The notes beneath the pieces are model-generated. The model saw only the letters and a list, made by a program, of their open reading frames with translations, did no database searches and was not told where the DNA came from. From Oscillospiraceae bacterium (GTDB lineage Bacteria; Bacillota; Clostridia; Oscillospirales; Acutalibacteraceae): DNA of 64,000 nt. Made by a program: the position numbers and the translations under genes. This document shows positions 57,347 through 62,476 of this stretch, one piece after another (within the stretch, counting starts at the first letter, position 1; each line of letters begins with the position of its first letter). The stretch is taken from assembly GCA_015066515.1 (NCBI GenBank), contig SVOH01000002.1:62001-126000 (forward strand), given 5' to 3'.

Positions 57347-57456
57347 TAAATTGAAAATTGAAAGTTGAAAATTATGGTGTGCCTATGGCACATTTATATT
57401 TCGTTCGCATAGCGAACTCCAAAATTATTCATCATTCATTTTTCATTCTTCATTTA
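57347..57456. repeat. MITE-like ~110-bp element with imperfect terminal inverted repeats and internal hairpins
   Basis: left end AATAAATTGAAAATTGAAAGTTGAAAATTATGG; right end reverse complement AAATGAAGAATGAAAAATGAATGATGAATAATTTTGG; internal GTGTGCCTATGGCACA and GTTCGCATAGCGAAC. Confidence 0.5.
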
Positions 57457-57807
57457 ACTAAAGCTTCCAAGTCCAAAACTGACGGACAAAGCCTTGTCCA
57501 CACGGTTCATAGCTCCGGGGTCAATACTACCCATTTTTTCTTTAAGTCGCTGTTTATCAATTGTTCTCACCTGTTCAAGCAGCACAATGCTGTCCTTTGC
57601 AAGACCGCAACACTCGGCGCTTATATCTATATGCGTAGGCAATTTTGATTTTTCGTGCTGACTGGTTATCGCGGCGGCAATTACCGTAGGACTGTACTTA
57701 TTTCCAACATCGTTTTGAACTATAAGCACAGGCCGCACCCCGCCCTGTTCAGAGCCAACAACGGGGCTTAGGTCGGCGTAGTATATTTCTCCTCGTTTTA
57801 TATTCAT
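57454..57807 (-). CDS. mazF: MazF/PemK-family endoribonuclease toxin
   Basis: [49 protein letters not shown]...HIDI...[14 protein letters not shown]. Confidence 0.95.
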
Positions 57808-59726: not shown

Positions 59727-60194
59727 TTAAATTTCTTTTTTGCCGGCATATCTCATTATTTTGTTTGCCCAATTCCTTGTTTCTTCAGACAACTGAGGCA
59801 CATTCTTTGCTAAGCCTGCAACTAAATCTGCAACTTTTGAATATTGTGCTGCAATACGTTGTTCTGCTGTTGGGAGCGCACTACCCTGATCTTTTTCAAC
59901 ATTGAGCAAAATTTTACTAGTTTCACCATCGTTAAATTCGATTTTTATATAGTGCTGACCGCTTGAATCATTTTCACTGTCCAAATAAAAGGTTGTTATA
60001 TCCTCTTTTATTACATGCTCAGCCTCAATTGCGGCTACCTTTATAAATGTAAGCTTATCAAACGCACTGTTCATTGAAACTTTGCAAAGCTTATACTTAC
60101 CATCAGTAACCGTACCGTAAGAATGTGCCGCTGCTATTAGTGCACCCTTAAGCGCACTCTTACCTGCATCTTTCAACTTGTCCATAAATCCCAT
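59727..60194 (-). CDS. uncharacterised protein
   Basis: ORF 155 aa MGFMDKLKDAGKSALKGALIAAAHSYGTVTDGKYKLCKVSM..., co-directional. Confidence 0.7.
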   Translation of the reverse strand: MGFMDKLKDAGKSALKGALIAAAHSYGTVTDGKYKLCKVSMNSAFDKLTFIKVAAIEAEHVIKEDITTFYLDSENDSSGQHYIKIEFNDGETSKILLNVEKDQGSALPTAEQRIAAQYSKVADLVAGLAKNVPQLSEETRNWANKIMRYAGKKEI

Positions 60195-60244: not shown

Positions 60245-60517
60245 TTACCCTCTCAAATCCTTTAAAATTCTTCTGATTGTTCGTTCACTATAGCCATATT
60301 TACGTGCCAATTGCTTGTAATTTGCACCATTAAATTCGCTGTATATTTGTTCATATATGTACTGCTTGGTATAAAGCTCTAATGGGAAGGATATTTGCTG
60401 GCCTTTAAATTCCTCAAAAACCAATTTTGTGTTTTCTATACCGATCAAATCCACAAACTTTTTATATGAACCATTAAAATATTCCTTTTTATTTTCCAAT
60501 TTCAAACCAAATCGCAC
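60245..60517 (-). CDS. Mor-like HTH protein
   Basis: 90 aa; FKGQQISFPLELYTKQYIYEQIYSEFNGANYKQLARKYGYSERTIRRILK. Confidence 0.75.
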   Translation of the reverse strand: MRFGLKLENKKEYFNGSYKKFVDLIGIENTKLVFEEFKGQQISFPLELYTKQYIYEQIYSEFNGANYKQLARKYGYSERTIRRILKDLRG

Positions 60518-60693
60518 CTCATATACATCCTTCCTTTATATGATAAACTTTTTCTTTTGATATTACAAAAGACCTACAACAATGTTTTTTGTCAAAACAA
60601 GATGTCGCAATTTGTTGTAAAAACGTTTTACGTATATAAAGACACAGCAAATTGAAAAAATTATGTTATTTTTAAAATTTTTTAAAAATGCAT

Positions 60694-60722
60694 AAAAAAA
60701 GACACCATAAAAATGGTGTCTT
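60694..60722 (-). terminator. rho-independent terminator of sigma-factor fusion gene
   Basis: minus strand AAGACACCAT-TTTT-ATGGTGTCTTTTTTT. Confidence 0.85.
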
Positions 60723-60737
60723 AATTAATTATAAATG

Positions 60738-62414
60738 CTATTGTATTTCTTCGCCGTTCCACTGCTGATAGTCTGCGTCGTAATCTTGTACTATATTTCT
60801 ATAATAATAAAACGTAGATGTTTTGCATTCCCGCGAGCAATGAATTGTAAGCTTTGAAGTACGTTTAGATAAATCGGCAAAAGCGTTTTCAAATATATCT
60901 ATGGTACTACCACGTAAATAAATGTCGGTTAAATTATAACAATCAGAAAATGCATTTTGCCATATTGTTTTTACCGACGAAGGCACAACAACCTTTTTAA
61001 CCGAATCTTTAATCGCAGCATCACAAAACGCCGAAGGCATAATTGCCGCTACTTTTTTTCCGTCAATAATATCGGGTATTATATATACTCCGTCACTCGA
61101 GGCAGTTGAAACGCCCGTAATAACTATAACATTTTCCACCGGTGTAGCGGGGATATTACCACTGGTAAAGCAATCCTCTGCCGTAGCATCACGATAACTA
61201 TAGGTTGCTGATACAGTAGGTTTTTGTGTTTCTGTCGGCTTTGAATTTGGCGGTTCGGTCTCTGAAGACACATCGCTCGTTGACGAAGATTCTATCACAG
61301 AAGACGTAATTGATGAATCAATCACAGTCGATAAATTTTCATTTTCTTCGTTAGAAGGCTCTTTATTATTATCGGGCTGTTGCGGATTGTCGGTTGCAGT
61401 CGACTCGTGTGTATTATCATCAACTGCCGTTTGCACACTGCTGTTTTGGTACTCGTTACTACTTGTTTCTTGTGATGAAATAATAATAGCACTGTCACTT
61501 GATGATTCTGTGCTAATATTTGGGCTCTGTATTTTATTTTTGCCAAAGCCAATAAGCGCAAATACCGTTATCAAAGTTATTAAAGTTGTAATCATTGATA
61601 TCGCAACTATACACGAGGCAATTTTTAAAACGTTCTTTTTTTGTTGTTGCTTTATAACCTTTGATACAGCTATTTCTTTTTGGTTACTACCCTTTACAAC
61701 ACCGTTTAATATTTGCTGTGCAATAGCAACACTAAGCAATGCTGTACCAATCACATTGCGTATTGCAGTTGCAATCATTGCAACAAAATCGCCACTGTAT
61801 ACCGACTTGTCTATTCCGTGAACCGCAAGTTGAGATTTCAAATTGCGTTTTGCCCTATTTAACTGGGTATATACAGTAGCAGCGGGTACACCGCGCATTT
61901 TTGCGATTTGTGTAACACGCATACCATCATAATATACCAAGGAAAGCAGTTCAGCGTCTTGCGGCTGTAATTCTCTAAGAACCGCTGCAACATCTAACTC
62001 AACATCTTTTTGCGTTTGATCTTGCCTTAAAAATTCAGAGTAATCCTCTTCTTCTGTAATAGAACTTTCATTGCGTTTAGACCGCAAAAAGTTTTTTGCA
62101 GTGTTTTTTGCAATTGTAGTAAGCCAGCTATAATATGCATTAGGTGAACGCAGACTTGATATACCCTTAAACACTTTAATAAAGGTTTCTTGTATTGCGT
62201 CATATGTCGTTTCATCATCGGGAATATATTGTCGCACAACAAAAAACACGTAGCGATAGCTTTGCATATAAAGCTGTTCAAATGCAGCTTTATTACCGTT
62301 AATTGCTTTTTGAATCAAATCGGTATTTTTTAATAAATTTTCTTCTGTATCGTTAACCGATATCAGTTCACCTTGTATATTGTGCAATTGATTATCGCCT
62401 TTAAAATTTGACAT
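60738..62414 (-). CDS. ECF-like sigma-70 factor fused to TM helix, Ser/Thr-rich linker and BspA-like leucine-rich domain
   Basis: start at MSNFKGDNQ (62414) after AAGGTGGTGA; sigma2 AAFEQLYMQSYRYVFFVVRQYIPDDETTYDAIQETFIKVFKGISSL; sigma4 LLSLVYYDGMRVTQIAKMRGVPAATVYTQLNRAKRNLK; TM VLKIASCIVAISMITTLITLITVFALIGFG; LRR VKKVVVPSSVKTIWQNAFSDCYNLTDIYLRG. Confidence 0.9.
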   Translation of the reverse strand: MSNFKGDNQLHNIQGELISVNDTEENLLKNTDLIQKAINGNKAAFEQLYMQSYRYVFFVVRQYIPDDETTYDAIQETFIKVFKGISSLRSPNAYYSWLTTIAKNTAKNFLRSKRNESSITEEEDYSEFLRQDQTQKDVELDVAAVLRELQPQDAELLSLVYYDGMRVTQIAKMRGVPAATVYTQLNRAKRNLKSQLAVHGIDKSVYSGDFVAMIATAIRNVIGTALLSVAIAQQILNGVVKGSNQKEIAVSKVIKQQQKKNVLKIASCIVAISMITTLITLITVFALIGFGKNKIQSPNISTESSSDSAIIISSQETSSNEYQNSSVQTAVDDNTHESTATDNPQQPDNNKEPSNEENENLSTVIDSSITSSVIESSSTSDVSSETEPPNSKPTETQKPTVSATYSYRDATAEDCFTSGNIPATPVENVIVITGVSTASSDGVYIIPDIIDGKKVAAIMPSAFCDAAIKDSVKKVVVPSSVKTIWQNAFSDCYNLTDIYLRGSTIDIFENAFADLSKRTSKLTIHCSRECKTSTFYYYRNIVQDYDADYQQWNGEEIQ

Positions 62415-62476
62415 TATATTCACCACCTTACATAAACGATTATACATATTTTTGTTATATTTTCAACTTTAACTTT

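Follow-up and report, generated by a model that had tools for sequence, protein, structure and literature searches.

The window examined in this study, a stretch of 64,000 nucleotides from an Oscillospiraceae bacterium, carries on its minus strand an intact gene for a 558-residue protein in which an ECF sigma factor, a transmembrane (TM) helix, a linker and a leucine-rich repeat (LRR) ectodomain follow one another in a single polypeptide, as a preliminary description of this DNA had proposed (Table 1). Sigma-70 regions 2 and 4 are complete (E 1.7e-12 over profile positions 1-69 of 71 and E 1.4e-9 over positions 4-54 of 54, respectively) and region 3 is absent, which identifies the protein as an ECF sigma factor; its TIGR02937 score is 93 bits, compared to a cut-off of 42.9. 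The sigma half matched the sequences of AlgU/SigH, RpoE and SigW in the PDB. When residues 1-305 were modelled with AlphaFold from a 32-row alignment, both sigma domains reached pLDDT values mostly above 90, and a Foldseek search with the sigma model returned AlgU, RpoE and SigW.

Beyond the TM helix, 69% of the linker consists of S/T/N/E/D/Q residues (S/T share 35%), and it is possible that this region serves as a wall-spanning spacer. The ectodomain is of the BspA type, with an LRR_5 match at residues 471-541 (E 7.9e-8; 32.7 bits compared to a curated cut-off of 27.7) and matches to PDB entries 4gt6 and 6mlx, and the C-terminal end matched BspA-like and TpLRR proteins in the PDB. The BspA-like C-terminus reported earlier is thus present, as a small domain of about four repeats plus an end piece and not as a long array. 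An AlphaFold model of the ectodomain made without an alignment was uninformative (pLDDT only 41). Pfam detected neither an anti-sigma domain nor a zinc-finger domain in the reading frame, Cys268 is the sole cysteine ahead of the linker, and no autocleaving periplasmic domain was recognised in the protein. The locus also lacks an adjacent anti-sigma gene, as had been noted before.

Table 1. Features of the sigma-TM-LRR locus, in window coordinates.
Feature	Position	Strand	Details
Housekeeping-type promoter of sigma gene	62439..62466	minus	TTGAAA (62466-62461), 16 bp, TATAAT (62444-62439)
Sigma-TM-LRR gene	60738..62414	minus	558 aa, ATG to TAG, no internal stops
Sigma-70 region 2	62073..62273	minus	residues 48-114; Pfam PF04542; AlphaFold pLDDT mostly >90
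Sigma-70 region 4	61839..61991	minus	residues 142-192; Pfam PF08281
Conserved juxtamembrane segment	61623..61826	minus	residues 197-264; hydrophobic ~211-231, Lys-rich 238-264
Transmembrane helix	61554..61610	minus	residues 269-287; hydropathy 2.47; Lys/Arg-rich N-terminal side
Ser/Thr/Asn/Glu-rich linker	61206..61544	minus	residues 291-403
Ectodomain	60741..61205	minus	residues 404-558; BspA-type LRR 471-541 + end piece
Terminator-like hairpin 3' of sigma gene	60692..60724	minus	AAGACACCATTTTTATGGTGTCTTTTTTT in sequence
Candidate cognate ECF-type promoter of Mor gene	60637..60663	minus	TAATTTTTT-N10-TGTCTTTA; exact match to 6/6-locus pattern
Mor-family transcription activator	60245..60517	minus	90 aa; Pfam PF08765 Mor, E 1.9e-13
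MGFMDKLKD-type protein downstream of Mor	59727..60194	minus	no Pfam family over cut-off

A family of sigma-TM fusions and its ectodomains

The same genome contains a paralogue on contig 31 that is 63% identical over the sigma-to-TM half and has another ectodomain, and four congeneric genomes contain orthologues of 737-797 residues with an ectodomain of the paralogue's kind. Across the sigma-to-TM half, the window protein is 53-65% identical to the paralogue and these orthologues. The orthologue ectodomains are unrelated to the window's LRR domain and are DUF5050-like where recognisable; DUF5050 exceeds the Pfam threshold in one orthologue, and the others align with it while scoring below thresholds. 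The LRR domain, which the preliminary description had treated as the defining sensor, is therefore not the defining part: because the orthologues, including one whose locus is homologous to the window's, bear a different ectodomain, sequence comparison describes the family as a sigma-TM chassis with exchangeable sensors.

The architecture is found in many genomes of the order, with sigma-TM fusions identified by profile search in at least 19 of 297 (our own tally of the listed table, combined with a TM check). In 36 family members the sigma part is followed by a TM segment and then by a C-terminal domain, which excludes the earlier concern that a frameshift had artificially joined two reading frames. 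The C-terminal domains of these members are diverse and mostly extracytoplasmic, and include LRR_5 (up to eight matched stretches), weak LRR_4/14 matches, WG repeats, PQQ-like domains, Big_2 and lipase 3. The HxxxCxxC motif of zinc anti-sigma domains occurs in none of the 36 members (first 330 residues of each). Mapping the LRR label onto a tree built from the sigma part takes at least four changes, and the close group forms a long branch, so that its TM half is only possibly homologous to that of the wider group. Three sigma fusions of approximately 1050 residues (L099, L100 and L104) have no TM segment after the sigma part and were set apart as another type.

The full window protein had no match among GTDB contigs, and a six-row alignment matched only two close-family loci there. 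In a scan of the phylum (E 1e-45), nearly all matches outside the order were ordinary sigma factors of about 200 residues, with long frames only in G201 (660 residues) and G871 (551 residues). The nearest named records are Clostridia metagenome-assembled genomes from the ruminant gut, consistent with a clostridial and not an actinobacterial host.

The window locus and contig 21 of genome G004 are homologous but rearranged, with identities of 97% for phosphoglucomutase, 95% for the antiporter, 85% for the mannosidase and 60% for Mor. The sigma-TM gene on that contig bears a DUF5050-like ectodomain, while a separate protein encoded about 5 kb away (G004:C21:12970-13977) joins a zinc ribbon, a TM segment, a linker and an LRR domain that is 66% identical to the window ectodomain over 156 residues. 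The two sigma proteins share high identity as far as residue 280 or so, which lies in the TM helix; beyond this point the identity collapses. Since the G004 sigma gene has another ectodomain and the LRR domain lies on a separate protein nearby, the window ectodomain has probably been swapped, and replacement of everything outside the membrane would be the simplest account of the difference between the two loci.

Zinc-ribbon-TM-LRR proteins of the same genus resemble the window protein in their homologous LRR ectodomain, similar linker and TM anchor, but differ in having a zinc ribbon as the cytoplasmic head and in having as neighbours a small gene and one for a Ser/Thr kinase. On G004 contig 21 (L108:12257-14448), the kinase, the zinc-ribbon-TM-linker-LRR protein and the small gene, which has no Pfam match and appears HTH-like by eye, are clustered; this arrangement suggests a parallel signalling system using the type of sensor found on the window sigma factor.

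Promoters of the sigma genes and their neighbours

The ATG at 62414 is the correct start of the sigma gene, since the alternative in-frame ATG at 62447 sits upstream of the predicted -10 element (62439-62444). The TTGAAA/TTGACA...TATAAT arrangement is also found 5' of all five close homologues, giving housekeeping-type promoters in 6/6 sigma genes. The preliminary description had suggested looking for a repeated -35/-10 motif that would include the gene's own promoter; that promoter looks housekeeping, and autoregulation of the close-group sigma genes by an ECF motif is unsupported. A weak resemblance occurs upstream of one wider-group sigma gene (L034). In addition, a dyad, ACAAGGACACATTTCCTTGT or a near match, adjoins the -35 element of the sigma gene in L028, L030, L031 and L032 and also lies ahead of Mor in L031; it is absent from the window and G004, and is a candidate Mor-binding or feedback site.

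The Mor-like cluster downstream of the sigma gene had been recorded as a neighbour. It is present as described, and its position is not incidental: a Mor-family gene (90-110 residues) comes next after the sigma gene on the same strand in 6/6 close loci, each with a conserved candidate promoter. The promoter pattern, [CA][GA]TAATTTT[TC]T-N10-[CT]GTCTTTA, begins 142-148 nt before the Mor start in 6/6 loci, which share ancestry and are themselves the loci on which the motif was defined, so that their own matches do not count as independent. The -35 and -10 parts have mean pairwise identities of 0.78 and 0.86, compared to 0.36 for the spacer and 0.39-0.43 for the flanks. A greedy search yielded 12 conserved columns at the motif, compared to 4-8 in 20 shuffles. 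The exact motif occurs seven times in 70 congeneric genomes, namely at the six loci and once inside a reading frame. The window and G004, whose sigma domains have the highest identity, have a common variant of the motif. Its layout, with CGTC in the -10 element, resembles that of Bacillus ECF promoters. Taken at the level of sequence, it is likely that the Mor gene is a direct target of the window sigma factor. A wider regulon was considered and rejected: one-mismatch matches in the 70 genomes are approximately at the level of the reversed-pattern control, and therefore no claim is made for targets other than the adjacent gene.

A different motif accompanies a second group of sigma-TM-LRR genes (G004 contig 37, G077, G078 and G015), in which a lipoprotein gene comes next and is preceded by AAAACCNAA-N8-TAAATCCCCTTTRT. 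Scanning 70 genomes for this motif with up to two mismatches gave five matches, all of them exact, compared to none for the control. The fifth match (G023) lies between a previously unseen 864-residue sigma-TM-LRR gene and its lipoprotein gene, at a locus that played no part in defining the motif; the motif therefore predicted a fifth, unseen member of the group. Being out of sample, this match provides the strongest evidence that the proteins are functional sigma factors and have a promoter at the next gene. A further element, CTTTATTAATGTAAGG, at and just downstream of the -10 element, is common to Mor promoters (L028/L031) and lipoprotein promoters (L034/L038), two classes that are otherwise different.

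Similar-looking MGF(L/M)DKL proteins are encoded near Mor genes in other genomes, and the MGFMDKLKD-type protein of the window is a possible further output. At other loci Mor is followed by genes for collagen-repeat proteins or lipoproteins, and for this reason one might guess at surface remodelling as an output of Mor.

Several additional observations concern these neighbourhoods. Very long collagen-repeat surface proteins follow Mor at L028:1-2441, L029:9184-12816 and L031:9432-13862, and that of L029 also carries an LRR_5 domain. A SpaA-domain membrane protein is encoded divergently from the paralogous sigma gene (L028:5677-7050), and in the window a PemK/MazF-like gene (57454-57807) separates the Mor cluster from phosphoglucomutase. 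Other loci of the genus (L228-L232 and L236) have Mor homologues that are more distant (40-43%), mostly in genomes without a close sigma-TM gene; one is near an MGFLDKL-type protein and another is beside a zinc-ribbon-TM-LRR gene.

Membrane topology and activation

Summed over the family, Lys/Arg residues flanking the TM helix number 115 on the N-terminal side versus 62 on the C-terminal side, and Asp/Glu residues 35 versus 114, in counts that used automatic TM placement, which is poor for a few members. Because of this positive-inside bias and the Lys-rich stretch between the hydrophobic segments, the better topology model places the sigma part inside and the ectodomain outside, and the orientation proposed in the preliminary description is thus probably right. 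Of the single TM segment given there, the strong helix at 269-287 holds, but a second, weaker hydrophobic stretch at about 211-231, within the best-conserved part of the close family, had been missed. Mean pairwise identity among the six close homologues is 0.81 for residues 200-236, compared to 0.70-0.72 for the sigma domains; the linker (0.35) and the ectodomain (0.39) have lower values, on alignments that are unreliable. AlphaFold predicted helices in the juxtamembrane segment at low confidence, and its model of this low-confidence region gave no support for docking on the sigma part; that the segment is an intramolecular regulator of sigma is offered as a suggestion only.

We consider it fairly probable that the protein is a one-component transmembrane sigma receptor that is released by proteolysis and activates the adjacent Mor gene. 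Basal synthesis would proceed from the housekeeping promoter, and the ECF sigma domain would be held at the cytoplasmic face of the membrane by its own TM helix, inhibited by the tether, the juxtamembrane segment or both. The disordered Ser/Thr-rich spacer would reach into or through the wall and display the exchangeable ectodomain, here a small LRR domain. Sensing of a ligand or of the state of the wall would lead to loss of the tether, most likely through two-step intramembrane proteolysis, whereupon the freed sigma factor would bind RNA polymerase and transcribe Mor from its dedicated promoter, and Mor in turn would regulate downstream genes for the surface or envelope. Proteolytic release is plausible in view of the parallels with IutY, ECF52 and RsgI (PMC8999054, PMC5826349, PMC12203970). 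The genome encodes site-2-type protease homologues, which adds little weight because such proteases are near-universal.

There are several potential alternatives to this reading. Activation could occur without cleavage, in the manner of ToxR/CadC-type regulators, if a ligand altered the oligomer state or freed the sigma part from the juxtamembrane segment. This segment is the most conserved part of the protein, which a mere tether for proteolysis would not require, and soluble ECF sigma factors with C-terminal extensions are regulated by conformational change (PMC8999054). However, IutY, the tethered sigma factor for which experiments address this point, is activated by proteolysis (PMC8999054), data on truncated ECF52 have been read as supporting release (PMC8999054, PMC5826349), and transcription requires the sigma factor on a large, mobile polymerase; we regard activation without cleavage as rather unlikely. 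A hairpin topology, in which residues 211-231 also span the membrane and a cytoplasmic C-terminal domain senses an internal signal, draws on the fairly hydrophobic character of this stretch in all close homologues (octanol-scale sum approximately -2.4 to -5.9) and on its prediction as a helix by AlphaFold. It would nevertheless place the Lys-rich KEIAVSKVIKQQQKK between the stretches outside, in conflict with the positive-inside rule. Both the linker and the LRR/DUF5050 domain types belong to surface proteins, and in most other members of the family just a single TM helix is clear, making the hairpin improbable.

It is very improbable that the LRR ectodomain is decorative or adhesive with the sigma part mainly a passenger or decaying: the same ectodomain does occur on a zinc-ribbon-TM protein without sigma, but the sigma regions are complete with 70-72% mean identity and the candidate cognate promoter motif is conserved. 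Finally, the exact combination of sigma-TM half and LRR ectodomain was found in one genome assembly only, as a metagenome chimera of a sigma-TM gene and an LRR gene would be, yet such an artefact is scarcely credible, as it requires two junctions, one of them in frame, while the homologous G004 locus is matched both by the sigma half upstream and by Mor and its promoter downstream, and LRR ectodomains arose several times on sigma-TM proteins.

Relation to known tethered sigma factors

ECF52 (SCO4117 of Streptomyces) likewise combines an ECF sigma factor, a TM segment, a flexible linker and an extracellular domain in a single polypeptide (PMC5826349, PMC8999054), and ECF48 and ECF53 resemble the window protein in joining an ECF sigma factor to a TM segment. 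Unlike the window protein, ECF48, ECF52 and ECF53 separate sigma from the TM segment by a zinc-finger anti-sigma domain (HxxxCxxC), and they are actinobacterial (PMC8999054) whereas the window host is clostridial. In IutY (ECF243) of Pseudomonas putida, sigma is fused to a membrane region and freed by Prc and RseP (PMC8999054). IutY has an anti-sigma domain fused C-terminally to sigma and is part of a cell-surface signalling system of the Gram-negative kind, unlike the window protein, in which Pfam recognised no anti-sigma domain and the ectodomain is an LRR. In the SigI/RsgI system of Clostridium thermocellum, RseP and then ClpXP act to release sigma (PMC12203970). RsgI is similar to the window protein in its TM helix, trans-wall region and divergent extracellular sensor domains (PMC12203970) but is a separate anti-sigma factor, while in the window protein sigma itself holds the cytoplasmic position.

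A literature search found no published description of a sigma-BspA fusion. Tethered ECF sigma factors are known (IutY, ECF52); as far as searched, there is apparently no description of a clostridial family that lacks an anti-sigma domain, has swapped its ectodomains and is linked to a promoter. An ECF group number for this family may already exist, because a review based on the 2021 ECF classification counts 15 groups with extensions as unstudied (PMC8999054). We tentatively propose, as a generalisation with slightly less than an even chance of being correct, that in this order of Clostridia an ECF sigma, a conserved juxtamembrane segment and a TM helix form an anti-sigma-free chassis with unrelated, recombination-swapped extracellular sensors and a dedicated promoter for switching on the next gene, in which the juxtamembrane segment would be a new intramolecular off-switch and the Mor output of the window's group would form a two-tier circuit.

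The family offers a natural domain-swap experiment, in which like sigma halves and target promoters are paired with different sensors. If the proposal is true, a single protein would act as receptor, anti-sigma factor and sigma factor, making the activation of a tethered sigma factor by an external signal directly accessible to study, and the family would represent a natural modular receptor for anaerobic gut bacteria, with the conserved promoter as a ready reporter.
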